DNA of 64,000 bases, from positions 1-64,000 of the forward strand of contig JAMASS010000020.1 of NCBI GenBank assembly GCA_024761205.1. Reading direction: 5' to 3'. The position numbers and the translations under genes were made by a program. Shown here piece by piece: positions 3,394 through 43,938 of this stretch; position 1 is the first letter of the stretch, and every line of letters begins with the position of its first letter. Under the pieces are notes generated by a model. It saw nothing but the letters and a program-made list of their open reading frames with translations. It was not told the DNA's origin and searched no databases. Source of the DNA: Limisphaerales bacterium (GTDB lineage Bacteria; Verrucomicrobiota; Verrucomicrobiia; Limisphaerales; AAA164-E04).

Positions 3394-4109
3394 ATTCGCC
3401 GTGGGAAAAATGTTGTCGGCCAGCTTACTTCGCGATTAGCGGATGGATAACGGTGTGTTCTCGGTAGACGGTTGGTTGGGGGGGCAATAGTAGTGTTGCT
3501 AGGCCAGAATTCCTTTGGTTTCGATGTGCTTGCACCCCGTTGACCGAGTTTTTGACCCCGAACTCCGCACTTGAAACGGACTTCAATTCGTCGCTGGAGG
3601 AGATCGCGGGTTTGGCGCACAACATTGATCTTTTCGCTCGTTGGCAGGAGCGCATTGGAGAGGTAGACACAGATTTCGGGATGGTGAGCGCAGTAGAAGG
3701 CAAATATATGGTGCCCATTCGTAAGCCTGACAGGAATCTGCGCCTTGACCCGGAGTTTTTCTATTCCTTCCGCGAGTGCCTGAGAACTTGGCACTGTAGC
3801 CCCCAAGAACTCTGAATCATGAAGTTCGTCGTCGAGCAAAAGGGTGCAGTCCTCAAGTAGTGATCGCGCGTAATCGTCACCTTCTCCTTGGCTGATGACG
3901 CCATTCTTGTCGGTGTCAACCCAACTGAGGAATTCTGGCAGCACGGCGACCCCCGGCGTGACATCGATATCAAGAATAATGGCAGCGGTCATGATGTCGA
4001 TTCGAGATGCGAGAAGGCACTCGTCAAGTCGATGCGCCCAAGCGTTCGGCGCACTGCAACAAAAAGCCAGTGCCAAAACCGTTTTGTTCAGAAAGAGGAA
4101 AGATTTCAT
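3390..4109 (-). pseudogene. Secreted EF-hand protein, 3' half frameshifted
   Basis: The product starts with a signal peptide (residues 1-25, ending NAWA) followed by HRLDECLLASRIDI. A canonical EF-hand loop lies at residues 65-76 (D-T-D-K-N-G-V-I-S-Q-G-E), predicting calcium binding in the periplasm or outside. The sequence is convincing up to about residue 180 (RQTRDLLQRRIEVRF), after which it turns into low-complexity out-of-frame sequence, so the C-terminus is lost. Its ATG overlaps the TGA of the upstream DUF3500 remnant (ATGA, 4106-4109), a sign of former translational coupling. The family, beginning with a HRLDEYL-like motif, has no known function that I can name. Confidence 0.6.
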
Positions 4110-5370: not shown

Positions 5371-5548
5371 GGCGCCCGCAATGTCATGTTAAGGAGTGTT
5401 AAGGACAAGCGTCCGTCTGGAGCAGTCGCAGCATTAGTCATCCTTGATTCGCCCACCCTAAGGCCACTGACTCCCCCTTGCACGCAACGAGAAGGGAGAC
5501 ATTGAAGGTGACCGACAAAGCCTTCAACCCTCGCTAGTCCTGGTCAAC

Positions 5549-6016
5549 TTAGATTCTGAAACAGTAGCCCTCGCCCCAAACGGTCTGAATGTGTTTTGGG
5601 ATATTCGGACATTCCTCTAGTTTCTTTCGAAGCCACGCGATGTGCACATCCACCGTGCGGATAGTGATGTGCGTTTGCTTGGGCCAAACTAGTTTGAGTA
5701 ATCTTTCTCGGGACATCACTTGGCCCCGATGATTGACGAGTTGTCGAAGGAACTCCGCCTCCTTGCTGGTCAGCCGAAGCTCCTCGCCGTCACGCTGAAA
5801 ACTGGTCGTGCCGAAGTCAGCCGTAATTCGTCCGAACTTTAGCTGTGTTACCGGCGTCAATCCGGCCTTCTGAGTCCGTCGGAGCAGGGCCTCGACCCGA
5901 GCCAAGAGCTCTTCTGGATCAAAAGGTTTGGCAAGATAGTCGTCCGCCCCCCGTGCGAAGGCCAACCACCCGGTCGGCAACCTGTCCCCGAGCGGCAATA
6001 TCCACTCGGAAAACAC
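5549..6016 (-). pseudogene. OmpR/PhoB-type response regulator, receiver domain deleted
   Basis: The 3' part is well preserved: the end of the receiver domain (ADDYLAKPFDPEELLARVEA, with the conserved lysine of the K-P motif) and a complete winged-helix output domain (LTSKEAEFLRQLVNHRGQVM, RTVDVHIAWLRKKLEE, IQTVWGEGYCFRI). The phosphate-accepting aspartate and the first two thirds of the receiver are gone. Upstream, the reading runs straight into the sensor kinase remnant: ARGQVADRVVGLRTGG belongs to the regulator but sits in the kinase frame, so a deletion fused the two genes near 6015 and a one-base insertion in a G run near 5950 split the regulator. Confidence 0.75.
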
Positions 6017-6690
6017 GCTGACTGTCGCCGACCTCTTCTTGTCTCACGCTGATACCTATCCAACCACCGGACGCTCCGTGTTTCGCCGCATTGATCACAA
6101 GATTGCAGAAGGCTCGGGTCAGTGCCGCCGCATCACCAACGACGAAAATCTCTGAAAGACTCGGGTGCGACATCCATTCTAACGTGCACCCTGCCTGTTC
6201 CACTTCGCGGCCACTTGACTCGACAGCAGCATCAAGCACAGCGTAAAGAGGGAGTCGTTCGCCCTGGCTAGGCGCTGCAGTTGTGCCTCCCCGCCGTGCG
6301 AACGCCAACACATGTTCCACTAACTCCGAGAGTTCCTGAACATGTTTGTCGATGAGTCCCGCATAGCGCCTCACTCGGTCGGGATGTTTGACAATGCCCG
6401 TCTTCAAGTTATGAGCTGCCCCACTGATCACCGCAAGCGGAGTTCTCAACTCGTGGGAGACGGTGGCAACGAATCGCATCTGTTCCGCCGCGAGTTGTCG
6501 GCGACGTCGGGTCACTTGGACGAGGAAGACGCCGGTGGCAAGAATGAGCGCGTTCAGAAATAGGGGAAAGGATAAAATTACGCCAACGAGCATGACCAAC
6601 CATTTCCACAGCCATAAACGGTCGTCTCCATACTTCCAATAACCATAGCGGCTTGCCTTTCTGTCCGCCCCGGCCACTTATATTGGCCAG
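6005..6690 (-). pseudogene. Sensor histidine kinase, both ends lost
   Basis: Visible are one membrane segment (about 24 residues around LVMLVGVILSFPLFLNALIL), a dimerisation domain with the H-box FVATVSHELRTPLAVISGAA, and the N-box LVINAAKHGASGGWIGISV. The G-boxes of the ATP-binding domain are missing because the sequence passes after FRVDIAARG into the response regulator remnant. The N-terminal sensing part is also lost; the 5' end abuts the truncated DUF3500 copy near 6690 on the opposite strand. Order kinase then regulator suggests a former two-component operon. Non-functional. Confidence 0.75.
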
Positions 6691-7338
6691 TGGTTTAGCT
6701 CTCATTTTTGGCCGGGACGAGTACTATATCTCTATTCTAGGCGAGCCATCTCCTATAGATCCCTGGATGTTACAGTTTGGAGGACACCATTTAGCCATTA
6801 ACGTAATGATCAAAGGAAGCGAAGGCATTCTCACGCCCTCGCTCATCGCGGTTCAGCCGGCGCGATTTTCTTGGAATGGGAAAACGGTTGAGCCAATGGC
6901 CGACGAAGTGGACAAGGCACTTGCCCTGATGCAATCGCTAGATGCGGAACAACGCGAGGCCGCAATTCTTAGTTCTCGCTTTCGTGATCTCGTCCTGGGT
7001 GCAGGAGAAGACGGAAGAAAGATCGCCTCGGAGGGAGTGAAAGTATCCACATTTACAACCAAACAGCGTGACATGTTGCTTGATCTCATTGGTGAATGGG
7101 CGAGAATTGTGCACGAAGACGCAGCCAAAAAGAGAATGAATGAGATCCGCGAAAAGCTGGATGAAAGCTGGTTTGCATGGGCAGGCCCGGTGGCTGAGGG
7201 CAGGGCGGCCTACTATCGGATTCAGGGCCCAACGCTGCATATTGAGTCGCTCCTCAAAACATGGGCGGCGACGGGCAACACATTCATTCCATTTACCGAG
7301 ATCCGACCAATGATTACGGGGTCAAACTGATGCGTTGA
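6690..7338 (+). pseudogene. DUF3500 protein, 5'-truncated plus-strand copy
   Basis: The coding sequence is clean from FGRDEYYISILGEPS through MLQFGGHHLAINVMIKG, LTPSLIAVQPARFSWNGKTV and FAWAGPVAEGRAAYYRIQGP. A single-base change near 7250 shifts the frame; in the next frame the normal end NMGGDGQHIHSIYRDPTNDY is found, with the stop at 7336-7338. The N-terminal half of the family is absent: the gene begins abruptly at a junction with the histidine kinase remnant. It is homologous to the copy at 4106-5370 and less decayed. Confidence 0.75.
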
Positions 7339-7559
7339 CATTGATCCGAGCAACGGTTGCCCACGGCTGGGGCCTGTGTGGTTAGCGATCGAGGAAGACC
7401 AGCTGCTCTAGTAGTGGATTGACCATCGCGAAACACCTATTTTAGCAGTAGGTGTCAGCTCAAATTTCATTGCTCCCTGATCGGAATACCGTAAGGGACG
7501 GCGACTCTCGAGCACGCTCGACCAACCGTATCAACGTTGTCTGCGAGTGCGGTTTTCGA

Positions 7560-8342
7560 TGAAGGCGTGGTATTGTTTCTTTGTCGTCGTTTTGGTGGTT
7601 AGGGCCGCTGTCGGCCCAACGGTCAAGGCGGACCGTGAATTGGGTGCAATCCTGTGTTGGGAACTCGCGATTTCGGAATCGCTGGTGACGGGTATCGGTT
7701 TGGAGGCGATCTTCGAATAGGTGATTTGAACGGGGATGGCCGCTGCGATTTTCTTGTCTACCGCTGTGTGCATGGCACTTCCGAGCAACACGCATCGGGG
7801 AGGGTTAATCTTTTTGGGTGCCTTTGATTTGGACGGCAACGTCTTGTGGCAGACAGGGACGGGTAGTCGGCCGGCATCCGTGTCGGTGGGCGATGCTCTC
7901 GGGGACGGGGCAGCGAACATGGGTTGCTTTTGGCATCGGCCCTCTGGCTAGGTGTCTGCCGATTGGAAAAGCCTAGCGGACGTGGTGATACAGATTCGCG
8001 ACGGACAGACCGTGGCGGTAGTGCGGGAATCGACGATTAAGGGAGACCGCGTCGCTTGCGAGAGCCCTAGGGCAGGGACGGGGTTTATCAACGGTTGTCG
8101 ATCGCTAATTTTCGAGGCACGCCTTAACCACTCAATGTGGTGATCAAGTTGGGAGATCAGGCCCGCCCGGATGACGTTGAGTCGTCGGATCATCGTCTTG
8201 GTTCGGCCGTTTCTTTGCTTTTTGTTTCTGAGATTTCCTTTGAGGGCCCTATCCTGGGTGTTTTTGAAGTTATCTCCGTTGGTCCCGAAGGGAATGATGG
8301 TGCAGGGCGTGTCGGTTTGTTTGATCACCATGAATTCATCTA
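7560..8342 (+). pseudogene. FG-GAP-type repeat protein remnant
   Basis: The reading starts with a signal-peptide-like stretch (MKAWYCFFVVVLVVRAAVG), then shifts to a calcium-binding FG-GAP/VCBS-like motif IGDLNGDGRCDFLVYRCVHG near 7720. Later pieces are FDLDGNVLWQTGTGSRPAS, GDALGDGAANM, ADWKSLADVVIQIRDGQT and VIKLGD. These are typical of secreted beta-propeller proteins with repeated DxNxDG loops. Several stops and shifts interrupt it and the C-terminal two thirds expected for the family are missing. Confidence 0.5.
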
Positions 8343-8399
8343 GCCGACACTGAAGCCGTCGTCGAGCATTCCCGTATCACTCGGAATCGCTGACTACGC

Positions 8400-9050
8400 T
8401 CATGCTGTCGCGAGATTTATTGCTGACGATCGGGGCATCATAAAAGCGGCCGTCCGCGTGCAAGCAAAACTGCGTTTGCCGTCGCGCAGGTAAAAATCCC
8501 CCAATTGATTGACCAAGCTCCCCGCGGTTCCATTGTTTCCGGTGAAAATCACCAGTGTGGTTTCGTCGAGTCCGAGTTCTTCGAGTTTGCCTAACAGCCT
8601 ACCGACTATCGCATCCATATAGTGGACCATTTGCCCGGCGATGCGCCTTTTCTTTCCAAGGCCTTTTGGGTATTGCGCTTCAGCCGCTTTCTAATCACCG
8701 GGAGGCATGATCAACGGGCTGTGAATCAGGTCCATGGGCAAAGTAGGCAAAGAACGGACGCTTTCGATTGCGCTCCATGAAATACAATCAGAAAATCGCA
8801 ATAGTAATTCGGACCAAAGATTTCTTCGCTTTGCTTCTTGTATTTCCCAGTTTGAGCCCTTCAGCAGCTACGCGATCCAGGTGCGGCGTCGAGTAGACCG
8901 CATTGCCGTAGCAAGCTAGGTTTTCTGCGCTCAGATCATCGGCCATGATGATGAGGATGTTTGGCTGCTTCCCCGGATCGATCCGGTCAAAGCGAACGAA
9001 CCCGGAAGAATCAACCCGAGAAAGCAAATTGCCGTGCTAGTTTCCTTTTG
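8400..9050 (-). pseudogene. Sulfatase remnant
   Basis: The N-terminal part (KQPNILIIMADDLSAENLAC and YGNAVYSTPHLDRVAAEGLK) is the standard sulfatase opening, including the metal-binding DD pair. A middle piece reads FAYFPMDLIHSPLIMPP after frame changes, and the later piece HYMDAIVGRLLGKLEELGLD, then TTLVIFTGNNGT, is the family motif near the metal site with N in place of D. The CxPSR active-site segment, where cysteine is converted to formylglycine, has been deleted, so no activity is possible. About 210 residues remain of a usual 450 or more. Confidence 0.75.
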
Positions 9051-9368
9051 CTCGGGACAGATGCCTGGCCGCCTATTGTTCCGCCAGCCGCTTCTCTGTT
9101 TCTCGGTAATTTGGTCGAGTGTGAGATTTCCGGTCCTGGGGCTCCTGCTTCTGTTGGGAAGTGTTCAGTTTCCGATTTCTGCCTAGCACTGTCGATCCGA
9201 AGCAATTCTGTTGGCAAACGAAGTTGCTTCGTAGTAGGCACTCTAAAAGCACCATTCCATGGGTGCAAATCGAGTAATCGGTGAGTGCCTGCGGGCGGTT
9301 GATTGGCGCTCTCGTTCCGACGTGAGAGACCTTGGCCATTGGTAGTTGTGTGCCAAAGTGAAGCTGAA

Positions 9369-10030
9369 TCAGCGGCTTTGGGATAAATCGAGAGAGGTCG
9401 CTCCGGGCCATTGTGGGAGGTCAAATCTCGGCAGATGGGACATAAAGCGTTCGACCGGGTGCCTCAGGTCTCTAGTCGGCCTACGGACGTTGGAGGCGTT
9501 CTCGGCGGTCGGTACGCTCACGGCTGCTGGGTTGGGCACCAATTCGGACCACCATAACTTCTGTCGCGACCCGGGAGGAATCCCTGAAAACCGCTGGGCT
9601 ATTGCTTCAGCTTCCTTCTTGTCGATGGCATCATCTTGGTTGGTGTCGGCTCGGTCTAAGATTCGCCGCATGAACTGAGGGGAGATCGTCTTGGATCACC
9701 TTGCCGTCTTCGTTGGCATATTGCCCATGATGCGCAACTAGATTGAATCCACCACCCGTACTCATTGCCGGCAATCTCCTGCTTGAGCATCGCTTGGATT
9801 TCGGCCTTATGGCGACCCATTGTTGCCGGCATCCGCTCGCTTCGTCAAACTCATGAATTGCCCCGGCAACTCGCGGGTCGTCGGATGCTGACCTTGATTT
9901 CTGTCCAGGCTAGGCCTCGAGAAAACGCTGTTTGTGAGCGGTGTTATTCGATGCTCCCTCTTTGGCTAGCGACGGGACGGTCGTGAGGGCAATCGCCACG
10001 GCAGCAACGACGAGTTGTTTCGGGTTCATA
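9369..10030 (-). pseudogene. Secreted EF-hand repeat protein remnant
   Basis: A signal peptide is seen at the 5' end (MNPKQLVVAAVAIALTTVPS, then LAKEG) at about 10030. The 3' part has an EF-hand, RADTNQDDAIDKKEAEAIAQ, near 9640. The region between reads in mixed frames. Such short secreted EF-hand proteins sit near sulfatases and DUF1501 genes in PVC genomes. Sequence from 9050 to 9369 on either strand gives no recognisable product. Confidence 0.5.
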
Positions 10031-10074
10031 AGCTTTCTCTCTCGCTTCTTATCATTCAATTTCCTGCCTAGTGT

Positions 10075-10774
10075 CGATTGTCAAAGCCACTCATCTGGAG
10101 TTTCGCAATCCTGCCTTGGATCGTGCCGTTCTTCAATTCTTCGGCAGTTCTTCCGAGAACGGCGTCGAATTTGGCGTTGAGGACATCAATCTTTGATCCG
10201 AGGATCGATTCCCAAGCTAACAGGTTACTCACCTACCAACAGAGGCCATCGCAAAGATTATCCTTGTGGCCGTTAATGAGCATTTGGGTGGTGAAAATTC
10301 ATTGGCCGTTTTTGCTTACCGCAAAATGAATGTGAGGCGTCCGCAATACTCCGAGAATGGGTTTAATCGTGCGGAAGTAATAGTGACTCTGCGAATCGGT
10401 CAGGAAACGGTCATAGCCTTGGAAATTGGTGTTGTGTCCCTCGGGATTGCATCCGTTGGCGTGCAGTAGGAGGCGGTGCCGTCCACTTGCCAGATTTCGA
10501 CGAACGCATTGCGGATGAGAGCATCGCTGGTGCTAAACACGTGGCTATGGAGATAGGTCACTTCGTCAACAGCAGGCATAATGGAGTCGTTGACGATCAG
10601 CAGGTCGTTGTCGGTGTTGAGCAGCATTTTGTCTGGAGAGAGCGGCCCTTCAGCGGTGTCCGGCGTTTGCACGAGATGCTCTGCAAAGAGACCTAGTGTG
10701 GTGAACAGGGTAAAGCCAAGTGCGCTTTGCCCCAGGAAGTTCCGTCGATCACAGATCGGACTGAGCTGGTTCAT
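10075..10774 (-). pseudogene. Intradiol ring-cleavage dioxygenase-like remnant
   Basis: The N-terminal 90 residues are well kept: a twin-arginine signal (DRRNFLGQSALGFTLFTTLG), then TPDTAEGPLSPDKM and SDALIRNAFVEIWQVDG, the opening of protocatechuate 3,4-dioxygenase-like proteins, where a tyrosine ligand usually follows. After a frameshift the pieces SHYYFRTIKPI and RTPHIHFAVSK keep the HIHF histidine motif that binds iron in this family. Several further frame changes run to about 10075. Former exported dioxygenase; substrate unknown. Confidence 0.7.
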
Positions 10775-10829
10775 GGTATCTTTTGAATCGTTTTAGTTGG
10801 GCTTGTGAAACAGTTTAAGGGATCACTTG

Positions 10830-11400
10830 CATCAAGGCTTTCAAATCAGCCGCTTCTGATTCCGCTTACTTAAATGTCTCAAGGGTCGCTTCCGCTAGTT
10901 GCTTTCTGACCGCTTCTGATTTCGCTATAAGATTATCGCTGACCCGAAGGTTATTCGTCGATTGGAACAGCATTACTTTTCTCCAAATCCCTGGGCTTGA
11001 GGTTGACGCATTCTTTCTTCTAGTTAATTCCGTTCTTCGTCGGTCATTTCCTGTGCCAGTTGCTCAATCGACCTTTGTATTAGAGTCTGTGAATGCGTTT
11101 CTACTCTTGCCAACCCTATCTCATCCAATGAATCCAAATAGCTATTGACGTTATCCTCTATTTATTCATAAACAATGCGAACGTCATCAAGCATTCAGAC
11201 CAGTGCGGCCGCTTTAGCAGTTTCCCAGTCAAACAAAGCTCGATGCTGTAGATTTGTTGACCTTTGCTTAGGCAAAGCAGCTGGCTTTTGGGCTTCCGTT
11301 GGCTTAGCTAGCGGGAAATTATGCCCACGTCCCATCAAGCCTCTGCTTGGCTATTTGATCCACTTTTTCACCGTTTACTGTGCTTTCCGGTCGATTGTTC
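10830..11400 (-). pseudogene. Unrecognised coiled-coil-like protein remnant
   Basis: The minus strand contains a run reading YLDSLDEIGLARVETHSQTL, IQRSIEQLAQEMTDEERN and a stop, then after a gap SDNLIAKSEAVRKQLAEATL. Composition and heptad-like spacing suggest alpha-helical coiled coil. Upstream, FDWETAKAAALV and MLDDVRIVYE are separated by stops. I do not recognise the family. It may once have been a single hydrophilic protein of about 170 residues. Confidence 0.3.
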
Positions 11401-27173: not shown

Positions 27174-27938
27174 TTAAAACGAGCCATATGACTCCATGTC
27201 CATCACTCGCTTCAGATACGAGCGATCTCCCAGGGTGCTGACAAAATAGGACCGTTCGGCTTCGCTCCAGGTGAAAGTCGCCCAGCGGTCTACTTGTTCA
27301 AATTTCGGAATCACCGACGTCGGAGCATCCTCCGCATCCATCGGACCCAGAATAAAAAGGTGCACCACTTCTTGCTCGATATCGAAACAAATGAGCGCCA
27401 CCTCCTGATCGTGCCAATCAATCATCTGGCATCCAATTCCCGGATGCTTCGCTAGGGCAGCAGGAATCTTAAAGTTTGCAAACCCATGTTTGCTCTTCAG
27501 GTATTCGCGAATTTCATCGGGATCTTCACTCTGCATTTCGAGAACAAAAAACCGAGAAAGGTAGTTCCCCATATCAAGCTTGAGTGCTGCATAGGTTTTC
27601 GGTCCGGCCGGTTCAAAACGGTTGAGGTAAAAAGCGATGGGCGTGAGCAACAGCAGGACAGCCACAGCGATGGCTAGAGTATGCTTGAAGGCCCAACGGT
27701 GTTGAACTTGGTGTTCGAGTTTTCCCATCAGGATCCGAGCTTTCAGATCTTTGGGAACGGGTATTTCCTGAAATTTCTCGCTCAAGGCTTTGGAACCTTC
27801 TTGCTGGCGGAAGAACCATGATTGAAGCTCAGGATCAATTCTGGCTAAAGACAATGCCTCCGCAAAGTGCGGGTCCTCTGCATCCCTTCCGCTCGGCCGA
27901 TAGGATTGCAGCAAATATTTTGCTTCTTCTTTGTCCAT
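27174..27938 (-). CDS. Putative anti-sigma factor (single-pass membrane protein)
   Basis: 254 residues: an N-terminal cytoplasmic part of about 80 residues, one membrane segment at 86-105 (HTLAIAVAVLLLLTPIAFYL), and an external part of about 145 residues. It has no cysteine-histidine zinc motif of the ZAS type. The role is inferred from position: its ATG lies one base after the stop of the ECF sigma gene (TAG-T-ATG), so the two are almost certainly translated together, and a one-pass topology is the rule for partners that hold ECF sigma factors at the membrane. Intact. The signal sensed is unknown. Confidence 0.75.
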   Translation of the reverse strand: MDKEEAKYLLQSYRPSGRDAEDPHFAEALSLARIDPELQSWFFRQQEGSKALSEKFQEIPVPKDLKARILMGKLEHQVQHRWAFKHTLAIAVAVLLLLTPIAFYLNRFEPAGPKTYAALKLDMGNYLSRFFVLEMQSEDPDEIREYLKSKHGFANFKIPAALAKHPGIGCQMIDWHDQEVALICFDIEQEVVHLFILGPMDAEDAPTSVIPKFEQVDRWATFTWSEAERSYFVSTLGDRSYLKRVMDMESYGSF

Positions 27939-27939
27939 A

Positions 27940-28488
27940 CTACAGGCCTTGATTCTTTTGTTGCGGGGAGAGCGGAACGATCTTGGCTTTGCTCTCGCCT
28001 TCGCATTCGGTCAACAACTTCAACAATTGGTTGCGACCCCGGGATATTCGGGACATCACCGTCCCAATGGGGATCTCAAGGATTTCGGCGATTTCTTTAT
28101 AGGAGTAATCTTCGAGATGAAATAAGACTAATGGTACCCGGAAAAGTTCGTCGATTCTTTCCAAGGCGGCGACCGCCACACTGGCGTCAATTCGGTTCAC
28201 TACGTCCGCCGTCACGGTCGGGATCTCGGACTCCGCAATATCGACTCCGTAGTGAGGATGACTCTTCTCAAACCGCCTCGTGCTGAGAAACTCCCGATGA
28301 AGCGTCGTGAAGAGCCAGGCTTTTAGTTTCTTCGGATCACGGAGTTGGTGCCCCTTGATGGCCCACTTGTAAAATGTTTGTTGCGTCAGATCAGAGGCGT
28401 TCGCCACGTTGTGAGTCAGCGTGAGGGCAAAGCGGTACAGCATGGTGTAGTGCTTATCGACGATCTCTTCGAAGTCCAGCTCTGCCAT
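27940..28488 (-). CDS. ECF-type RNA polymerase sigma factor
   Basis: 182 residues with region 2 (FEEIVDKHYTMLYRFALTLT, DLTQQTFYKWAIKG, LKAWLFTTLHREFLSTRR) and region 4 (VPLVLFHLEDYSYKEIAEIL, EIPIGTVMSRISRGRNQLLK, a helix-turn-helix that reads the -35 element). There is no region 3, as in ECF factors. It recruits RNA polymerase to a small regulon in response to an envelope signal, under control of the anti-sigma gene immediately downstream. The spondin repeat gene lies 75 bases upstream on the same strand and may be in the same transcript or a target, which is inference. Intact. Confidence 0.92.
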   Translation of the reverse strand: MAELDFEEIVDKHYTMLYRFALTLTHNVANASDLTQQTFYKWAIKGHQLRDPKKLKAWLFTTLHREFLSTRRFEKSHPHYGVDIAESEIPTVTADVVNRIDASVAVAALERIDELFRVPLVLFHLEDYSYKEIAEILEIPIGTVMSRISRGRNQLLKLLTECEGESKAKIVPLSPQQKNQGL

Positions 28489-28562: not shown

Positions 28563-31500
28563 CTACTCGATTCGTGTGAATACGAACTGTCCCAACGGCG
28601 GAAGCCCCAGCGACCCATCAAGCGGCGGGTTCTCGAGACGCGTGATCACTCCCTGAGGCAGTGTATCCTGATCCTCTGACGTATAAGTCACCCCACTGTC
28701 GGTACCTGCATCATAGGCAAACAAATCCACACTGAGTTCATTCACCCAATCACCGTTGACAAGGAGACTCAGTCCGTGAACACCAACAAACCAATCAGGG
28801 CTCGGGGCCACCATGGACACCAAACTCACCAGCGGATGACTCTGGGTAGCCTCAAACTCCAGAGACACACTACCAGGTGACTGCCCGATCCCACCACCCG
28901 AAAGCAAGTTCTGAGCAGTCCCCATAGCCGTATAGGTTTGAATCTCTGAGTCGAGTAGGGATTTGCCGCCGGTTTCCGCCATGTTCTCGATGCCAGGCGT
29001 GGCCGTTCCGCCGGGTTCCCAGAAGACCAAATCCTCATTGTGAGTCGCTCCGATCAACCCGGAAAAGTGAGGGTTACTCGGAAAATCCGTCGGATGCAGA
29101 GAGGGACTCCACATCGCGTTGAAGACGACGGAAAACCGCGCCGTTTCAGATGGGAATGCGGAGCCTTCAATGATTCTCAGAAACTGCTGATCGCCCGAGC
29201 TCTCAAACGTGGCCGTTCGATCGCTGGTGCTCAAAAGACTTTCCCATGTATCTCCGGCCACCTCCGAGCGACCCTGCACCGTAAACGGTGCTCGCCCTCC
29301 GGACCACGTCAGCGTGATATTATTACCGTCTATGGAAATGCTTTCAATCCGGATGCCCTCGCCTAGCGATAGCTGCAAGGGTTGGTTTCCCGGGGCGTTG
29401 ATACTGGCATCGGCAAACCCCTCCTGATCGACAACGCCCCCAGTCCCGGACTCATTGAAGCCGGGATGAACAGACACCGTGCCGTTTTCGGTGGTCCCTG
29501 TATTGGGTGCGCTCTGAGCAAGAAACGCCGTGTTCTCCGGAACCTCGTCGTTAACCTCGGTGCCCGCGTCGTAGACTCGAAGATTGGCAATGATGATCCG
29601 CTCTCGGAGAAGATTCCCTCGATTGTCGAAGATAGGATAAGCCTTTGGATCGCTGTTCCCAACAAAGGCATCGTTACTTGGAATCACCATGGAGGCGAAG
29701 CTGAGATAGCGATCCTTGGAATCATTCGCATCCAGCATCAACGTGATGGAAGCGGATTCTCCCGGTGCGAATGGCGGAATCATGCCCCCACTGATTACCG
29801 TCGTTTCGGTAGATCCGGCGCCACTTTCTTGGAAAAGTCGGCTAATCGGTGCGGTATCTCCGTCTTCCGCCAATCGTTCGAGTTCCGGAGAGGCAGCTTC
29901 CCCGATGTCAAACAAATCAAAGGAACCATTGTGAACACCAATCCAAACCGGCGTTTGAAAAGTGCCACTTTCCGAAGAGCCGTTCCGAAAAGTGATCGAC
30001 ACCAAAGTCGGTCTTGGCTCGACCTTGCGCACGGTGATACGTGCAATGTTATACCCCGCCACCGTGAAGTCTGCGCCGCTGAACTGATCATCCGCAAGAA
30101 TGCCACCCTCAGACACGGGCTTGAATCCCGGGTGGTCAGTGTTGACTCCGTTCTCATCGTCACCGGTGTTCGGAGCCGCTTGACCAAAGAAGGCGGTGTT
30201 CGCCGACAATTCGTCATTGATCTCAGTGCCTGCGTCATTGACCTCACTGCCTGTGACCGTAATTTCAGCACCCACAAACTCGCCATTTTCATCAAACAAC
30301 GGATGCGCCATCGGATTGCCGTTGGCCACATAGGCATCGTTACTCGGAATGACCATGGCGGCGTAGCTGAAGTGCTGATTCAAAGAAGTATTGGCATCAA
30401 GGGTGAATCGCTTACTCGTGCTAGCGCCTGGAGCGATGGGGCCAATGGCAGCGAGTGTGCCCTCAATGGCACCACTGCCTGAAGCAAAGAATTCTTCAGC
30501 TAAGACGGTCGGATCCCCGTCTTCTGCGATGCGTTCAATTCCTGGTGATGAAGGCGACCCACTGTCGTAGGAATCAAAACCGCCATTGTGAAAACCCACC
30601 CAGAGCGGAGTCAGATAGGTGCCATTTTCCGGGGCCAGGTTTTCGACAATCACTTCGACATTGATGGGTTCGGGCGCAACGCGTCCGACCTTGATGCGGG
30701 CGACTCCATATCCCTCGGCCGTGAAATCGGCATTGGTAAATCGAGCATCGGCGAGAATGCCGCCTTCGCTGGCTGGTTTGAAGCCCTGGTGATCTTGATT
30801 GACACCATTCTCAGCGGTTCCGGTATTGGGCGCGATTTGACCGAAAAAGGCGGTGTTCTCAGGGAGCTCGTCGTTCACCTCGGTCCCTGCATCGTTGATC
30901 GCACTACCAAGAATCTCGAACTCCGCGCCCAAGAAATTGCCCTGACTATCAAATACGGCGTGCGCCATGGGATTGCCATTAGCAATATAGGCGTCGTTGC
31001 TCGGAATCACCATTGAGGCATACGAAAAGTAGCGACTCGACAAAGAATTTGCATCGACGATAAACCGTTTTGACGTGCTGGCCCCCGGAGCGATTGGGCC
31101 GATGGCGTTCAAGATCCCTTCGACCGTACCAGCGGCACTGGACAGAAACTCCTGTGCCAGCACTGCCGGATTCCCGTCCTCGGCGAGGCGTTCGATGCCT
31201 TCAGAGGATGCCGAGCCTCTATCGTAGGAATCAAAGCCACCGTCGTGAAAACCTACCCACAGTGGGGTGAGAAAGGTGCCAGTCTCAGGCGCGAGGCTCT
31301 CGATGGTGACTTCAACCTCAACCGGCCGTGGAATCACCTGTTCAACCCGAATTCGTGCGATCTGGTAACCGCTTGCAGTAAAATCTGCGTTTGCGAACAT
31401 TGGATCGGCAAGAATCCCACCCTCACTCGCGGGCTTGAAGCCGGGATGGTTTCGAGTGACACCGTTTTCAGGCGTTCCCGTATTAGGTGCGGCTTGACCG

Positions 31501-32468
31501 AGGAAAGCCGTGTTCGCCAGTGTTTCATCATTGACCTCCGTACCAGCATCGTTCACTGCCGTTCCCAAGATCACGAAATCTTGCTCAATGAAATTGCCGT
31601 TCTCGTCAAACAATGGATGAGCCACGGGATTCCCATTGGCCACATAAGCGTCATTGCTCGGGATCACCATTGAGGCATAGCTAAAATAACGATGACCGGC
31701 GGACGTCGAATCCAGATGAACCCGAGCCGAAGCGACTGCTCCAGGGGCAATCGGGCCCAACTCGTTCAGCACAGACTCAATCGATCCTCCCGCCACTTGA
31801 AACTCTTCTGCCAGCACTCCCGGATTCCCATCCTCGGCAATCCGTTCAATTCCAGGCGAGGACGGGCTCCCGCTGTCATAGGAATCGAAACTTCCGTCAT
31901 GAATGCCTACCCACAGAGGGGTTAGAAAATGACCATTTTCAGGGGCAAGATTCTCGATCGTGATTCGCACCTCCAACGATGGCGCCGAGGCCGCTCCGAA
32001 GCTGCCGAAGACAGGAGTCTGCGCCATCCCGGCAACGCTAGTCGCCAGATTCGGCCAAATGCCGGCATTCGCGGCAATCCTACCCGCACCGCCCCGGGTC
32101 GCCGCACCATAGCGCAGTCCGCTGATGATCGAATCGGTGTTGGTGAATCTGAAATTCCGATAAAGAAAAAGATCGGAATCATCAGCATTTAAGTCTGCCA
32201 AAGTAGACGCCCTTGATCTCCCGGGCGCGAACGTTGTACCGACAGGAATGCGATTGCTATAATTAAACCGGTGGCAGAACGGGAATTCGTTGGGCAGCGT
32301 GATAGCTTCATCCCCGACGTTTGTCACCTCGACCTCTCCGGTTGATGGCAGAACCTCGGTGATCCAAAGCTGATTGATGCCAGCGCGAACGTGATAGCCG
32401 AGAGTCAGGCATAATAGGAGCAGCAGCGATGTCGCTCGATAGTATAATGAGGAGTGATAATGGTTCAT
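28563..32468 (-). CDS. Large secreted protein with tandem Spondin_N domains
   Basis: 1301 residues from ATG 32468 (a TTG nine bases earlier is the other option; no clear Shine-Dalgarno). Signal peptide at about 1-30 (LLLLLCLTLGYHVRA), an N-terminal beta-rich domain (about 30-160), then four near-identical spondin-like repeats of about 219 residues starting near 162, 382, 602 and 822. Each carries LAPENGxFLTPLWVGxHDG, SFDSYDSGSPSSPGIER, MVIPSNDAYxANGNP and VNDAGTEVNDE. A short beta-sandwich linker (about 1036-1108, with ITLTWSGGRAPFTVQGR) precedes a divergent fifth spondin domain (about 1109-1301, MVAPSPDWFVGVHGL). Spondin_N is best known from F-spondin and reelin-type matrix proteins, as a C2-like, possibly calcium-binding fold. 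The repeats align with about 657 bases per unit, pointing to recent tandem duplication. Likely surface or extracellular; no anchoring signal seen. Confidence 0.88.
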   Translation of the reverse strand: MNHYHSSLYYRATSLLLLLCLTLGYHVRAGINQLWITEVLPSTGEVEVTNVGDEAITLPNEFPFCHRFNYSNRIPVGTTFAPGRSRASTLADLNADDSDLFLYRNFRFTNTDSIISGLRYGAATRGGAGRIAANAGIWPNLATSVAGMAQTPVFGSFGAASAPSLEVRITIENLAPENGHFLTPLWVGIHDGSFDSYDSGSPSSPGIERIAEDGNPGVLAEEFQVAGGSIESVLNELGPIAPGAVASARVHLDSTSAGHRYFSYASMVIPSNDAYVANGNPVAHPLFDENGNFIEQDFVILGTAVNDAGTEVNDETLANTAFLGQAAPNTGTPENGVTRNHPGFKPASEGGILADPMFANADFTASGYQIARIRVEQVIPRPVEVEVTIESLAPETGTFLTPLWVGFHDGGFDSYDRGSASSEGIERLAEDGNPAVLAQEFLSSAAGTVEGILNAIGPIAPGASTSKRFIVDANSLSSRYFSYASMVIPSNDAYIANGNPMAHAVFDSQGNFLGAEFEILGSAINDAGTEVNDELPENTAFFGQIAPNTGTAENGVNQDHQGFKPASEGGILADARFTNADFTAEGYGVARIKVGRVAPEPINVEVIVENLAPENGTYLTPLWVGFHNGGFDSYDSGSPSSPGIERIAEDGDPTVLAEEFFASGSGAIEGTLAAIGPIAPGASTSKRFTLDANTSLNQHFSYAAMVIPSNDAYVANGNPMAHPLFDENGEFVGAEITVTGSEVNDAGTEINDELSANTAFFGQAAPNTGDDENGVNTDHPGFKPVSEGGILADDQFSGADFTVAGYNIARITVRKVEPRPTLVSITFRNGSSESGTFQTPVWIGVHNGSFDLFDIGEAASPELERLAEDGDTAPISRLFQESGAGSTETTVISGGMIPPFAPGESASITLMLDANDSKDRYLSFASMVIPSNDAFVGNSDPKAYPIFDNRGNLLRERIIIANLRVYDAGTEVNDEVPENTAFLAQSAPNTGTTENGTVSVHPGFNESGTGGVVDQEGFADASINAPGNQPLQLSLGEGIRIESISIDGNNITLTWSGGRAPFTVQGRSEVAGDTWESLLSTSDRTATFESSGDQQFLRIIEGSAFPSETARFSVVFNAMWSPSLHPTDFPSNPHFSGLIGATHNEDLVFWEPGGTATPGIENMAETGGKSLLDSEIQTYTAMGTAQNLLSGGGIGQSPGSVSLEFEATQSHPLVSLVSMVAPSPDWFVGVHGLSLLVNGDWVNELSVDLFAYDAGTDSGVTYTSEDQDTLPQGVITRLENPPLDGSLGLPPLGQFVFTRIE

Positions 32469-32635
32469 TGGGTTCAAATTTGATTTCTACTAGGTTGCAT
32501 TAAAATCTATATCCGAGTGCGGTCAACTAGACTTGGCCCGTATGACGACCGCTCATAGGCTTTATTCCCCGCAGATGAAAAATTTCTTGCCCCGCTCCCG
32601 ATGCTGTTCGCATCCGCTCTAGGCAAAGACGTGAT

Positions 32636-32777: not shown

Positions 32778-32854
32778 GGTGGCCGTAGCTCAGTTGGTAG
32801 AGCCCCAGATTGTGGTTCTGGTTGTCGCGGGTTCGAGTCCCGTCGGTCACCCCA
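32778..32854 (+). tRNA. tRNA-His(GTG)
   Basis: Acceptor GTGGCCG pairs with CGGTCAC (one G-U pair), D arm GCTCAGTTGGTAGAGC, anticodon loop ATTGTGGT with anticodon GTG, T arm GGGTTCGAGTCCC, encoded CCA at 32852-32854. An extra G at 32778, opposite C73, is the G-1 base that marks histidine tRNAs. Confidence 0.96.
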
Positions 32855-33720: not shown

Positions 33721-33798
33721 CAGCGGCGTGCCCTTCTAAACGAGTGCTTACTACGTAAAAGGACTTGGTAATATCCCAAAACAGGTTATTTTGTGCGT

Positions 33799-34899
33799 AT
33801 GGAAACAATTAACACAGCAAACACCGCCAAGGCTTTAAAAAACAAAGCAATACCGACTAGCACTGTCGGGCGTGGTCGTGCAGTAAAGGAAGAATTCACA
33901 CCTGACTCTGCTGTCTGGAGCGATGACCTGCTACACATTTCTTTGGGCAATAGTCTCGATCTATATGATTCATGGGATACACCAACCGCCATCATTTCTG
34001 ATGGAGGCTACGGTATATTGGGATTTGACGGCGACACTTCAGATCATCTTGGTTTGCCAGAATGGTACGAACCACATGTTGCCGCATGGTCAAGACATGC
34101 GACGCCCCGCACCGTTCTTTGGTTCTGGAACTCTGAAATCGGATGGACTGCCGTCCACCCGATTCTTGAGAAGCACGGCTGGCGGTACGTCAATGCGAAT
34201 ATTTGGAACAAGGGAAGAGGGCACATTGCAGGGAACGTAAACACAAAGAAGATTCGCCGTTTTCCTGTCGTAACAGAGGTCTGCGTTCAGTACGTATTTG
34301 AGGCGCGAGTCGGTGGTGTCGTGCTCAAGGAGTGGCTGTACGATGAATGGAAGCGCACCGGCTTACCCATGAAGCGAGCCAACGATGCGTGTGGCGTGAA
34401 GGATGTAGCTGTTCGTAAGTATCTCGATCAGGGTCATTTGTGGTACTGCCCCCCACCTGAAATGTTTGAGAAGATGCAACGCTATGCTAACGAACACGGC
34501 ATCCCGGGTGGAAAACCCTACTTTTCCCTTGATGGAGGAAAGACGGGCGGCACGGCGGCACAATGGGCAAGCTACAGAAGTAAATTTGAATGCCCTCACG
34601 GCGTTACCAATGTTTGGGAGAGACCAGCTCTGCGCGGGTCCGAGCGATACAAAACCAATGGTTTCAATGGCAAGGCACTACACTTGAATCAAAAGCCGCT
34701 AGATTTAGTGTCAAGGACAATCGAAGCGACAAGTGATGTTGGCGATGTTGTTTGGGAACCTTTCGGAGGTCTATTCACCGCATGTATTGCGGCGCGTGAC
34801 TTGGGCCGTCGTGCATTTGGCGGTGAGATTGATCCAACGTATTACTATTTCGGGCAGAAACGAGTTACCGAACAACGCCCTCAGACCCGACTTCTGTGA
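33799..34899 (+). CDS. Site-specific DNA methyltransferase
   Basis: 366 residues of the N4/N6-type DNA methylase superfamily. The catalytic motif IV is present in altered form, SDGGYG at residues 67-72 (usual form D/S-PP-Y). The S-adenosylmethionine-binding FxG motif lies in GDVVWEPFGGLFTACIAARD near 316-335, after motif IV as in beta-group enzymes, followed by GRRAFGGEIDPTYY. Recognisable family blocks such as WFWNSEIGWTAVHPILEKHG and IRRFPVVTEVCVQY are intact. ATG 33799 is preferred over GTG 33793. It converges with and overlaps by 35 bases the gene at 34865-35308, which may be its restriction partner. Flanked on both sides by decayed genes; a transferred restriction island is likely but inferred. 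Confidence 0.85.
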   Translation: METINTANTAKALKNKAIPTSTVGRGRAVKEEFTPDSAVWSDDLLHISLGNSLDLYDSWDTPTAIISDGGYGILGFDGDTSDHLGLPEWYEPHVAAWSRHATPRTVLWFWNSEIGWTAVHPILEKHGWRYVNANIWNKGRGHIAGNVNTKKIRRFPVVTEVCVQYVFEARVGGVVLKEWLYDEWKRTGLPMKRANDACGVKDVAVRKYLDQGHLWYCPPPEMFEKMQRYANEHGIPGGKPYFSLDGGKTGGTAAQWASYRSKFECPHGVTNVWERPALRGSERYKTNGFNGKALHLNQKPLDLVSRTIEATSDVGDVVWEPFGGLFTACIAARDLGRRAFGGEIDPTYYYFGQKRVTEQRPQTRLL

Positions 34900-39050: not shown

Positions 39051-40487
39051 CTACACCAAGATCCGCTTCGCTACATTCCCATGGACATCCGTCAACCGAA
39101 AATCCCGTCCCTGAAACCGATAGGTCAACTGCTTATGATCGACTCCAAACAAATGCAGCATCGTCGCGTGGAGATCGTGGACATGGAACGGGTCAACCAC
39201 CGCTTTGTAGCCGAGCTCATCGGTTTCCCCATACCTAATCCCTCCCTTGACGCCGCCGCCGGCCATCCACAACGAAAAACCACGGATGTGATGATCACGG
39301 CCTGTTCCTTGGGCCATGGGTGTGCGGCCAAACTCACCGCCCCAGATCACCAAGGTATCCTCAAGCATCCCTCGCTGCTTCAAGTCGGTGATAAGCGCGG
39401 CCGAAGCCTGATCGACCTCGCTTGCGGTGATTCTCATATTCTTCTTAATATCCCCGTGGTGATCCCAAGAGCGATGATAGAGATGGATAAACCGAACACC
39501 GCGCTCGGCCAAGCGTCGCGCTAGCAGGCAATTGGAAGCGAAGGACCCATCACCGCCCTCCGTACCATAGAGATCCAGCACATGCTGCGGCTCGTTGCTG
39601 ATATCCATCAGCTCCGGCACACTGGCTTGCATCCGGAAGGCCATTTCGTTTTGACTGATCCGCGTGGCAACCTCCGGATCAGCCATCACGCTGTCTAACT
39701 GCTGGTTCAACGCGTTGACGGCTGACACCAAACGCCGTTGATCGGACTCAGAAACTCCGGGCGGCCGTTTGACATAATGAACGGGATCACCGGACGCATG
39801 AAACTGAACTCCCTGAAAGTTGCTCGGCAAGAATCCACTGTGCCATTGGCGAGAAGAGATTGGTTGGCCCTGCCCTCCCTTTCCTAGCGATGTCAATACG
39901 ACAAAACCAGGCAAATTCTCGCTGTCGCTCCCCAAGCCATACCACAACCACGAGCCCATGCTTGGCCGCCCCGAAATCGAGGTCCCGGTATTGATGAACG
40001 TATGGGCGGGATCATGGTTGATTTGTTCCGTGTGAAATGAACGAACAATACAGATTTCATCAGAGATCCCACCGATCTTCGGAAACAACGCACAGATGTG
40101 TTGGCCGGATTGTCCAAAGTTTTGAAACTCATGCTGCGGGGCCAAACACTTCAATTCCCGCCCCTGCAGCTGGGCAATCGGTTGCCCCTTGGTGTAGGAT
40201 TCCGGCATGGGCTGACCATCCATCGCCGCTAGTTTGGGTTTGTGATCCAGCGTCTCCAGATGCGAGGGACCACCGGCCATACAGAGGTAGATGACGCGCT
40301 TGGCCTTCTGCACCTGTGGCATCGGCTGAATCACGCCCGGCCACTTCGCGCTCACCGGCGCAGCGGCACCCCGAGATCTCCAAGGCTCCAGCACGGAAGC
40401 CAGTACCAACGAACCAATACCAACCGTGCTTCGATTTAGAAAGGACCGGCGATTCTGCCGTTGAGCAAAAATATCGTAAGGACTCAT
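39051..40487 (-). CDS. DUF1501 secreted protein, intact
   Basis: 478 residues. A twin-arginine signal lies at R13-R14 (QNRRSFLNRSTVG), directing folded export. Family blocks: VIYLCMAGGPSHLETLDHKP, CIVRSFHTEQINHDPAHTFI, GSWLWYGLG, RRLAERGVRFIHLYHRSWDH, VIWGGEFGRTPMAQGTGRDH. DUF1501 proteins have an alkaline-phosphatase/sulfatase-like fold with unknown substrate. ATG 40487 has AAGGAAAACG directly upstream. It starts 17 bases after the PSD1 stop, and in PVC bacteria these two families are almost always paired, so they act together. Intact. Confidence 0.9.
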   Translation of the reverse strand: MSPYDIFAQRQNRRSFLNRSTVGIGSLVLASVLEPWRSRGAAAPVSAKWPGVIQPMPQVQKAKRVIYLCMAGGPSHLETLDHKPKLAAMDGQPMPESYTKGQPIAQLQGRELKCLAPQHEFQNFGQSGQHICALFPKIGGISDEICIVRSFHTEQINHDPAHTFINTGTSISGRPSMGSWLWYGLGSDSENLPGFVVLTSLGKGGQGQPISSRQWHSGFLPSNFQGVQFHASGDPVHYVKRPPGVSESDQRRLVSAVNALNQQLDSVMADPEVATRISQNEMAFRMQASVPELMDISNEPQHVLDLYGTEGGDGSFASNCLLARRLAERGVRFIHLYHRSWDHHGDIKKNMRITASEVDQASAALITDLKQRGMLEDTLVIWGGEFGRTPMAQGTGRDHHIRGFSLWMAGGGVKGGIRYGETDELGYKAVVDPFHVHDLHATMLHLFGVDHKQLTYRFQGRDFRLTDVHGNVAKRILV

Positions 40488-40503
40488 TCGTTTTCCTTCT
40501 TCT

Positions 40504-43500
40504 TTAGTAACGGGTAATCAATTCATGTAGATTCAAGATCGCCCGACTCACCATGGTCCAGGCGGCAAGTTCACCCGGATGGCAATCGGGACTCACCGGC
40601 GCCTCTCCGACGGCGGTTAACTTTTGAGCAGCCTCTTCGTCTTCAGCAAATCGGTCCAGGCTCTCGGTGAAGAGGTCCGTCAGGATTTTAACTTCTGCAG
40701 AACGAGGCTTCCGGCACACCGCTTCCTTGAAGGCCCAACGCACTCTGGCCTCAATATCATAGTTGTCACAACTCATGATGCGCTCTGCGAACACTCTCGC
40801 CGCCTCTACGTAGCTAGGGTCGTTCAACAGGGCCAGGGACTGGAGCGGCGTATTGGAACGCGTCCGCTCGGATGTACATTCCTCACGGCTCGGCGCATCA
40901 AACGCCTTCAAACTCGGGTGGAGAAACGTTCGCTGCCAATGCGTGTACACACCGCGCCGATATTGGTTAGCGCCTGAATCCGCTTCATATTTTCGTTTCG
41001 GGAAATTAAGCTGCGCATAGTATCCCTCCGGCTGATACGGTTTCACACTCGGGCCGCCAATCTGATCGATCCGCAGCCCACTGACGCTCAACGCCACATC
41101 TCTCACAACTTCGGCATCCAGGCGGAAGGGCGATTGACGAGCATAGAGCCGATTGAACGGATCCCGTTCCTTTAAATAATCACTGGCCACGGAGCTTTGC
41201 TGATAAGTCTGCGACGTCACCAAGAGCCTCACCAGGTGCTTCACATCCCAACCACTCTCCATGAACTCGACCGCCAACCAATCCAACAATTCTGGATGCG
41301 TCGGCCACTCGCCCTGAGATCCTATGTCATCAAGCACTTTGGATAGCCCGTTTCCAAAATAGAGTTTCCACAACCGATTGACAAAGGTCCGAGCGGTCAA
41401 CGGATTGTTTTCCGAAGTCATCCATTCGGCGAGATCCAAGCGAGACAAGGGTTTCTCGAGGGCAATATCTCCGGTCAAAAAGGCCGGGAGACTAGCTTGC
41501 ACCACCTCTCCCGAATCATCCATCCAGTTTCCGCGAGGAAGCACGCGCATTTGACGCGGCTTGACACTCTGAGACACCAGCATGGTGGGAATCTCTTTGT
41601 TGAGACGGTCTCGGGCCGACTTCATGGAAGCCAACCAAGATCGCGTGTTATCCAACAGAGGTGTGCGTTCCCGATAGTAATTCGTTAACCGCTGTTGCTC
41701 CATTTGTCCGCGATCAGCCCACGGCGCTAAAACCACGCGATAAATATCCGTGGGCAACCCAATTTCTTGGATCCCCGGATGTTCGATCGAAATCACAGAC
41801 AATCGGAAGCGGCCGATATTGTGTTGTTTGTGCTTCGACCGCTGAGCCAGTGTGATTTTCAGCGTGTCGCCTTCACCTAATGAAACAGGCGGGGAAAACG
41901 TGAACACGGCTGTCCGATTCTCTTTCTTCTTGCTACCGTCTACAGCCCAGCCGGATTCCTCATCCGAATCAATCGCTTTGGCCACCTCAAAGCCGCCTTG
42001 GGAGAAATCAGCCTCGGCTCTCGAAATCATCACCTCCTCACTTACCTGACCGTCCTTGGTCAACTTCTCGATCTGAAAATCCGTGAGCACAAAATTGCCC
42101 CCACCTCGTGACAAACTTTCTTCATCCAAAGAAGGGTGGGTAAGCGCCTCCAACCGAATTCCAGTGACGCGATTCCGGTCCACAGATAAGGTTACCTCGT
42201 AGCTATCAGATTCCGGATTTTTCCCGGAAACCAGCACCGAACGATCCGCGAGCACTCGCAGCGAAGCACCCTCGATAGATTTCACTTCCCTCGGCACCAC
42301 CGGTTCCCAAATCAGTCGTCCGGCCTGCTCTTCCTCTCGAATATGAGCTTCCCAATCGAGTTGCCCATTGACCAACGATTCTGTCGAGGTCGTCAGGGTG
42401 GTCTCCAATCTCGCAATCTCCGCCGTCAGTGACGCCATCTCACGCTCCTGCGACTCGGACGGAAGGGGGAGTTGGGGCTCCCATTGATTTCCCCCATAGA
42501 AACCCTTTTCTTTCAGGTCCGAAAAGAACGCAGCAAAACTGTAAAAGTCCTTGGTGGTGAAGGGATCAAATTTATGATCATGACATTCCGCACAGCCCAT
42601 GGTGGATCCCAACCAGACACTGGAAGTCGTCCGAACCCGATCCGCAGCATACTTTGCCAGATACTCCTTAGCTTGAGCGCCGCCCTCAGCCGTGATCATA
42701 TGCAGTCGATTGTAACCCGACGCCACCGTTTGCTCCCGAGTCGCATTGTCCAACAAATCCCCAGCCAACTGCTCGCGCGTGAATTGATCGAAAGGCATGT
42801 TTCGGTTAAAAGCATCGATGCTATAATCTCGGTACGGCCACACACTGTAAGGTTGATCTCCATGATAACCGACGGTGTCAGCGTAGCGAACGAGATCCAA
42901 CCAGTAGACTGCCATTCGTTCCCCGAATCGCGGTGACGCCAACAACTGGTCGACTACATGCTCAAACGCAAACCGATCCCGATCCTGAACAAACCGTTCC
43001 ACTACGTCCGCCGATGGTGGCAGCCCCGTCAGATCCAGATACGCTCGGCGGATCAAAGTGCGTCGATCCGCAGGTGCTGAGGGCTCCAGCTCTTCCCGTT
43101 CCAAACGCGCGCCGATAAATCGATCGATCGGGCTCCGCCACCAATTGGGATTCTTGACCTCCGGCACCGGCGCCTTTACCGGCGGCAGATACGCCCAGTG
43201 ACCTTCCCATTCGGCGCCGGATCCAATCCATTGGATCAACAGTTGGATTTCTTCCCCACTCAACGATTTTCCTGATGCCCCAGGAGGCATCCGGTCATTT
43301 GGATCAGTCGCCGTAATTCGCGCCAAAAGTTCACTCTTCGCAGGATGATCCGAATCAATCACCCGGTAGCCACCCCGATCTGCTTTCGCCTCGGATTCGA
43401 TGTCCAATCGGAGTTTCGCTTTGCGGGCGTTTTTGTCCGGGCCATGACAGCGATAACACTTATCCGAGAGAATTGCCCGAATATCGCGGTTGAAGCGAAT

Positions 43501-43593
43501 TTCCGTCTCTGCGTATGCGGAAAATGCAGCAACAAATACGAGTGCGAGGAATGGGAAGCTAACCCAAAAAGAAAAACGAAAACGATTACTCAT
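40504..43593 (-). CDS. PSCyt1-DUF1549-DUF1553 (PSD1) secreted protein, intact
   Basis: 1029 residues from ATG 43593 (a GTG at 43599 is alternative). Signal peptide at about 1-29 (ending AYAET). A PSCyt1 domain has one heme c site CYRCH at 46-50. DUF1549 follows (IRRAYLDLTGLPPSADVVER, GERMAVYWLDLVRYADTVGY, MPFDQFTREQLAGDLL), with a second CAECH near residue 350. A middle beta-rich insert holds a discoidin/PA14-like stretch (about 450-640). DUF1553 ends the protein ([54 protein letters not shown]). Periplasmic or surface; biochemical function unknown, proposed electron transfer is inference from the heme motif. First gene of an operon with DUF1501. Confidence 0.9.
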   Translation of the reverse strand: MSNRFRFSFWVSFPFLALVFVAAFSAYAETEIRFNRDIRAILSDKCYRCHGPDKNARKAKLRLDIESEAKADRGGYRVIDSDHPAKSELLARITATDPNDRMPPGASGKSLSGEEIQLLIQWIGSGAEWEGHWAYLPPVKAPVPEVKNPNWWRSPIDRFIGARLEREELEPSAPADRRTLIRRAYLDLTGLPPSADVVERFVQDRDRFAFEHVVDQLLASPRFGERMAVYWLDLVRYADTVGYHGDQPYSVWPYRDYSIDAFNRNMPFDQFTREQLAGDLLDNATREQTVASGYNRLHMITAEGGAQAKEYLAKYAADRVRTTSSVWLGSTMGCAECHDHKFDPFTTKDFYSFAAFFSDLKEKGFYGGNQWEPQLPLPSESQEREMASLTAEIARLETTLTTSTESLVNGQLDWEAHIREEEQAGRLIWEPVVPREVKSIEGASLRVLADRSVLVSGKNPESDSYEVTLSVDRNRVTGIRLEALTHPSLDEESLSRGGGNFVLTDFQIEKLTKDGQVSEEVMISRAEADFSQGGFEVAKAIDSDEESGWAVDGSKKKENRTAVFTFSPPVSLGEGDTLKITLAQRSKHKQHNIGRFRLSVISIEHPGIQEIGLPTDIYRVVLAPWADRGQMEQQRLTNYYRERTPLLDNTRSWLASMKSARDRLNKEIPTMLVSQSVKPRQMRVLPRGNWMDDSGEVVQASLPAFLTGDIALEKPLSRLDLAEWMTSENNPLTARTFVNRLWKLYFGNGLSKVLDDIGSQGEWPTHPELLDWLAVEFMESGWDVKHLVRLLVTSQTYQQSSVASDYLKERDPFNRLYARQSPFRLDAEVVRDVALSVSGLRIDQIGGPSVKPYQPEGYYAQLNFPKRKYEADSGANQYRRGVYTHWQRTFLHPSLKAFDAPSREECTSERTRSNTPLQSLALLNDPSYVEAARVFAERIMSCDNYDIEARVRWAFKEAVCRKPRSAEVKILTDLFTESLDRFAEDEEAAQKLTAVGEAPVSPDCHPGELAAWTMVSRAILNLHELITRY

Positions 43594-43938
43594 AGGCACG
43601 AAACTGAGTTCAGTGAAAATCTTCCCTCAACGGTGCCTTGAACCCTGTACAAGATTCAAGAAAGAAACGGAAATCTGGTTTAGCGTTGGAGCAAGACGTC
43701 GTCGAGCCGGCTTCTCTCAATCCCCAACCCAAGGATTCAGTCCAGTCCAGACTGACAGCGTCGCCTATCCCAGCCGAATCGCCCTTCTCAAATGAGTAAA
43801 GCATGCGAGGGAGACTGCGCCCCGCGCCACAAGCACTAGCTTTCGACACTAGTTAAGGACACCTCTTGCGCAGGGACAATCGTAAAATCTTCACTAACAG
43901 GTATGCGGGCCGAAGAGGCCGCAACATTAGCTCCTGAT
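43594..43938. other. Intergenic stretch between PSD1 and sugar-binding gene
   Basis: 345 bases upstream of the PSD1 gene; the promoter of the PSD1-DUF1501 operon must lie here but I cannot assign -35/-10 boxes. A GC-rich imperfect hairpin (GCGGGCCGAAGAGGCCGC, 43905-43922) lies just after the stop of the sugar-binding gene, without a clear T tract. Confidence 0.4.

Follow-up and report, generated by a model that had tools for sequence, protein, structure and literature searches.

SigK and RskA of Mycobacterium are an ECF sigma factor and its membrane anti-sigma factor, with the fasciclin-domain antigens MPT70 and MPT83 as extracellular cargo. In F-spondin, calcium was found to be bound by D325 of the PSPDW motif and by D354 and D358 of the DAGTD motif, of which D358 binds by its main chain only; membranes or sulphated polysaccharide are the proposed contacts of C2-type FS domains (PMC3117680). 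A study of 2018 pointed out Spondin_N genes in Pseudoalteromonas and, in Pseudoalteromonas luteoviolacea, placed a pair of them in a putative operon with a response regulator, a histidine kinase and an amino acid oxidase (PMC6316408). A curated bacterial model, NF038123 ('spondin domain-containing protein'), is part of NCBIfam, and plasmid records carry annotated members of this name. The statement of an earlier note on the DNA studied here, that Spondin_N proteins are mostly known from animal matrix proteins, is therefore out of date. A literature search found no published function or regulator for the bacterial spondin-domain proteins and no published link between spondin and an ECF sigma factor.

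The window, a stretch of 64,000 nucleotides from a Limisphaerales bacterium, was found to contain a gene for a protein with five spondin domains, followed on the same strand by the genes of an ECF sigma factor and an anti-sigma-like protein. The product is probably an exported, multi-domain, calcium-binding surface or matrix protein with five F-spondin (C2-variant) domains, encoded by the first gene of an autoregulated ECF-sigma operon. The features of the locus are as follows.

32541..32570, minus strand, predicted ECF-sigma promoter GGGGAATAAA-13-CGTCATA, some 73-102 nt upstream of the ATG (motif match)
28563..32468, minus strand, five-spondin gene, product exported, 1301 aa (start codon ATG at 32468, stop codon at 28563-28565)
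32382..32468, minus strand, hydrophobic leader, probable signal peptide (from reading of the sequence)
31977..32381, minus strand, N-terminal domain, probably beta-rich, without a Pfam match
31323..31976, minus strand, spondin unit 1, NF038123 type (profile and unit comparison)
30666..31322, minus strand, spondin unit 2, NF038123 type (profile and unit comparison)
30009..30665, minus strand, spondin unit 3, NF038123 type, modelled with an F-spondin domain fold (structure model)
29370..30008, minus strand, spondin unit 4, NF038123 type, divergent (profile, unit comparison and tree)
29145..29369, minus strand, linker module; other loci of the order have a similar stretch ahead of their canonical spondin domain
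28566..29144, minus strand, spondin unit 5, of the canonical Spond_N type, calcium-site motifs PSPDW and DAGTD (Pfam, 163 bits)
27940..28488, minus strand, ECF sigma factor, 75 bp downstream of the spondin gene (Sigma70_r2 and Sigma70_r4_2)
27174..27938, minus strand, anti-sigma-like protein with one predicted membrane segment (weak DUF3379 match)

The proposed arrangement resembles SigK-RskA in that a protein with an extracellular-matrix-type domain would stand under an ECF sigma factor with its anti-sigma, whereas the domain here is spondin and not fasciclin, and the sigma and anti-sigma are of another, DUF3379-like subgroup. The pair of P. luteoviolacea is likewise placed with signalling genes, but its proteins are single-domain and its neighbours are a response regulator and a histidine kinase rather than a sigma factor. 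All five stretches of the window protein match NF038123; one such domain is the usual number in the sampled NF038123 proteins, some of which add RTX-like or CHRD domains, whereas the window protein contains four in tandem followed by the linker and a canonical Spond_N domain, an architecture seen, within this sample, only in six genomes of the order of the window. Unit 5 is a canonical member of the F-spondin/mindin FS domain (Spond_N, PF06468) with the calcium motifs kept. Unlike F-spondin and mindin, the window protein contains neither reelin_N nor thrombospondin type 1 repeats, its export is bacterial, and its units lack cysteines at the FS disulphide positions.

The minus-strand frame extends over 28563-32477 from the first TTG and over 28563-32468 from the ATG, and was found to be uninterrupted across 1304 codons. 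The five spondin domains and the signal peptide of the earlier note were both retained, the latter since a hydrophobic N-terminal leader fits it, and the HMM search for Spond_N which that note had asked for gave matches above the curated cut-offs. The whole protein matched NF038123 in five stretches (E 2.5e-198, 654.9 bits, cut-off 40 bits) and Pfam Spond_N also in five (E 7.6e-75, 251.7 bits, cut-off 24), with four units of the NF038123 type, each above 140 bits against that model, and one canonical Spond_N unit. Unit 2 or 3 taken singly can drop under the Pfam Spond_N cut-off (21.4 bits for 30327-30620). Unit 5 matched the sequences of the spondin-2 structure 3d34 (E 2e-29) and the spondin-1 structure 3q13 (E 6e-27). 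The unit starts were found to be spaced by 657, 657 and about 660 bases, in agreement with the period of about 657 bases given before.

The N-terminal domain was without a match in a Pfam search up to E 10, and its single-sequence model was uninformative (pLDDT 45). One homologue, 50% identical and of different architecture, was found in the genome G048, where the copy lies at 665-1015 of locus L129 (G048:C121) within a spondin-free protein, as an unnamed exported module. The linker module was also without a match in a Pfam search; linker-like sequence was found in the loci L028, L029, L030, L032 and L033, and the BLAST alignments of L032 and L033 reach into the linker.

An AlphaFold model of unit 3, built from nine window or fetched domains, was obtained with a mean pLDDT of 83.8. 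The best matching structures were mindin 3d34 (Z 16.4 over 183 residues, 3.4 A) and F-spondin 3q13 (Z 14.8), followed by the next structure entry at Z 7.5; the two alignments extended over 183-187 residues and Foldseek concurred with the ranking. The structure prediction of one repeat, also asked for by the earlier note, thus gave a predicted F-spondin domain fold, with the C2-variant beta-sandwich seen in the model. Unit 5 was found to contain intact PSPDW and DAGTD motifs, and units 1-4 contained PSND and DAGTE. The ligand positions D, D and, at the third position, E were invariant in all nine aligned domains. The calcium-site loops, and with them the calcium-binding residues of the earlier note, are borne out at the level of sequence by residue conservation in all units, from which calcium binding in all five domains may fairly be expected.

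The first three units were found to share 68-69% of their amino acids with one another, 44-48% with unit 4 and 27-30% with unit 5, and the DNA identity of units 1-3 was 62-66% with third codon positions agreeing at 0.34-0.40, which is saturation. The description of four units as near-identical in blocks therefore did not hold. The silent sites were saturated between the units and between the orthologues, so that no numerical dS can be computed. Tandem Repeats Finder reported no large array, its longest period being 500 and thus blind to the 657-base unit. The assembly of G002, a second species of the same genus, was found to contain the same five units in the same order, and in a maximum-likelihood tree every unit was the sister of the same-position unit in G002 (supports 100/98 for unit 1, 93/92 for unit 2, 100/97 for unit 3, 100/100 for unit 4 and 96/94 for the C-terminal unit). 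Since silent-site divergence between the units is as great as that between orthologues of different species, and the units pair by position with those of G002, the expansion is older than the species split. The five-unit array was already present before the two species parted, with no homogenisation since, and a recent expansion is ruled out. Units 1-3 formed a single clade against all other sampled domains (100/99) and hence arose by duplication within the lineage, an expansion that is real but old. A repeat number produced by misassembly is unlikely because units this dissimilar would not be mistaken for one another, and the assembly of G002 shows the same array.

The five-spondin protein and its G002 orthologue were 74% identical in protein while their four-fold sites agreed at only 30%, which indicates purifying selection and upholds the earlier view that the gene is intact and may be under selection. 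The remark that the genome is decaying was found to be plausible, as stop-free frames of at least 200 aa cover 44.5% of the 64-kb window against 64-98% in nine related loci; the region of the window, and perhaps the whole genome, looks eroded. An intact N6/N4 DNA methylase gene was present at 33793-34899, about 1 kb beyond the tRNA-His at 32779-32854, and is possibly the remnant of an integrated element. Genes of DUF1501 and DUF1549/DUF1553 were present at 39051-43599 of the window, and these, with the overall gene complement, suggest Verrucomicrobiota as the probable host group.

The earlier note was silent on regulation. Its exported multi-spondin protein stands and its recent expansion does not, and the gene was found to be followed on the same strand by the sigma and anti-sigma-like genes. 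The sigma gene matched Sigma70_r2 (9.9e-11) and Sigma70_r4_2 (1.1e-12), with TIGR02937 above its cut-off; Sigma70 regions 2 and 4 were present without region 3 in about 180 aa, as in an ECF sigma factor. The genome of the window contained only 14 matches to the sigma region-4 family. In the 27174..27938 protein no curated anti-sigma domain was found above its cut-off, DUF3379 giving 17.5 bits against a cut-off of 33.2 and the other anti-sigma models being likewise sub-threshold; a literature search for DUF3379 found nothing. In the window, as in at least 20 loci of the order, the gene comes directly after that of the sigma factor, and this position, the one membrane segment and the sub-threshold matches point to a product that would act as the anti-sigma of this sigma factor.

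The order spondin, sigma, anti-sigma was found to be kept in G002 (sigma 81% and anti-sigma-like protein 64% identical) and in G036, a genome from another family (52% and 38%), and was present in L067 and L080 as well. In the loci L028, L063 and L064 (G004, G355 and G362) a different ECF sigma gene was found directly upstream of the spondin gene; in L028 and L063 the two are separated by a gene for a small protein that contains cysteine. All proteins of the NF038123-linker-canonical architecture (6/6) had an ECF neighbour. In the sampled phylum an ECF gene lay within 1.5 kb of 11/23 NF038123-type loci against 0/13 canonical-only loci (Fisher p 0.002), these loci, like those of the promoter counts, being related by descent and not independent; the ECF density in ten of these genomes gives an expectation of about 0.02 per locus. 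That every NF038123-type gene should have a sigma neighbour was predicted and then failed, since none of the six loci retrieved once the hypothesis stood (L130-L135) had one (0/6), and L136 had none either; the adjacency is hence a feature of part of the family. Related sigma/anti-sigma pairs were found in 31/58 relatives, mostly adjoining other genes, so that a pair dedicated to spondin was rejected.

Several further loci were observed in this connection. G000:C56:40702-40902 contained a second, degraded anti-sigma gene of this family, interrupted by two TGA stops, consistent with the loss of a paralogous signalling pair. The single-contig genome G001, of the same genus, was without spondin and without anti-sigma, and in G003, also of the genus, the anti-sigma was present and the contig ends within the sigma region; the two suggest that the operon comes and goes as a unit. 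Locus L037 was found to contain, at 3729-7323, a cyanobacterial spondin-RTX-like protein with an ECF sigma 1.5 kb upstream and, adjoining that sigma, an anti-sigma with the RskA_C domain, as in the SigK-RskA case, apparently an independent spondin-ECF association in another phylum. Locus L136 contained spondin domains within a 2466-aa protein at 3731-11131, in G818 of a different class of the phylum.

A bipartite motif, GGGAAYAAA followed after about 15 nt by TCYTA, was found to be shared by 19 sigma/anti-sigma pairs with no spondin gene beside them, in the DNA upstream of each pair. It was seeded from sites picked by eye in this training set, and a matrix built on twelve of the sites was used to scan loci that had not contributed to it. 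The site at 32541-32570 (minus strand) ranked 1 with the first matrix and 3 with the final matrix on both strands of the 64 kb, and its final-matrix score of 16.4 was below the mean best score of 17.0 of Markov-generated 64-kb sequences; its weight comes from its position and from the group statistic. The pattern GGGAAYAAAN{14,16}TCNNA was found once in the window, at this site (0.08 expected), and five times in its genome, where the other four precede no long exported frame. Sites of at least 13.5 were present upstream of 9/21 NF038123-type spondin genes against 5/214 other genes of the same loci (p 9e-8), and a block-rank test of the motif before the NF038123-type genes gave p 5e-8; the canonical-only spondin genes followed a weaker trend, with 2/11 top-ranked (p 0.015). 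The motif was also found upstream of spondin genes without an adjacent sigma (L066, L068, L132 and L135), as expected of a regulon. In L079, L080 and L029 it lay ahead of the sigma gene itself, L029 having both placements. The matrix found no site between the spondin and sigma genes of the window, and near the spondin start no sigma-70 promoter was found above chance. A sigma-type promoter ahead of the first gene of the operon is thus predicted computationally.

The proposal of the earlier note, a recently tandem-duplicated protein for host or surface contact, draws on the duplication of units 1-3 within the lineage (clade support 100/99) and on a repeat number that varies among relatives from one to four NF038123-type units; the saturated silent sites and the complete positional orthology with G002 refute its "recent", and it is given very little credence. 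It is unlikely, to a lesser degree, that the gene encodes an ordinary exported bacterial spondin protein whose sigma neighbourhood is due to chance or to inherited synteny without regulation. Many bacterial spondin genes have no ECF gene near them, as in Nostoc, Leisingera, Persicobacter and Pseudoalteromonas plasmids and in L130-L136, but the neighbourhood is kept across two families, the sigma gene occurs in several arrangements, and the promoter motif, learned from other loci, separates the spondin genes from the neighbouring genes.

The spondin protein might also be the signal input, sensing calcium or a surface outside and reporting to the anti-sigma. The spondin gene shares its operon with the sigma/anti-sigma pair, and related spondin-free pairs exist in the order with other neighbours, which implies that cargo and signalling part are exchangeable. 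Since spondin genes remote from any sigma gene (L066, L068 and L135) have the motif upstream as well, however, output fits better than input, and a sensing role is considered improbable.

In the favoured reading of an autoregulated operon running from the spondin protein to the ECF sigma and the membrane anti-sigma, a signal from the envelope or from outside would free the sigma from the anti-sigma. The freed sigma would transcribe from the GGGAATAAA-N15-TCATA promoter at 32541-32570, and more sigma and more spondin protein would be made. The spondin protein would be exported, its tandem domains would take up calcium through their PS(P/N)D and DAGT(D/E) loops, and they may bind anionic lipid, polysaccharide or neighbouring cells with an avidity set by the domain number. 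A surface or biofilm-matrix role, perhaps adhesive, is the most economical guess and host contact is possible; the locus fits a surface or matrix protein that is produced when needed better than a recently duplicated host-contact gene. For the phylum, the chances are about even that a group of ECF sigmas with DUF3379-like membrane anti-sigmas acts through a GGGAATAAA-N14/15-TCNNA promoter on the genes of F-spondin-domain surface proteins, whether linked to them or not, which would be an undescribed envelope-signal regulon with an animal-matrix-like calcium-binding output.

A canonical F-spondin domain, close to the animal one, was found beside a divergent bacterial form of the same fold in one exported protein, and this may bear on the origin of the animal domain. 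The conserved sigma/anti-sigma operon and the predicted promoter give a first handle on when bacterial spondins are made, and their function becomes a testable question, the signal first and then the binding partner.
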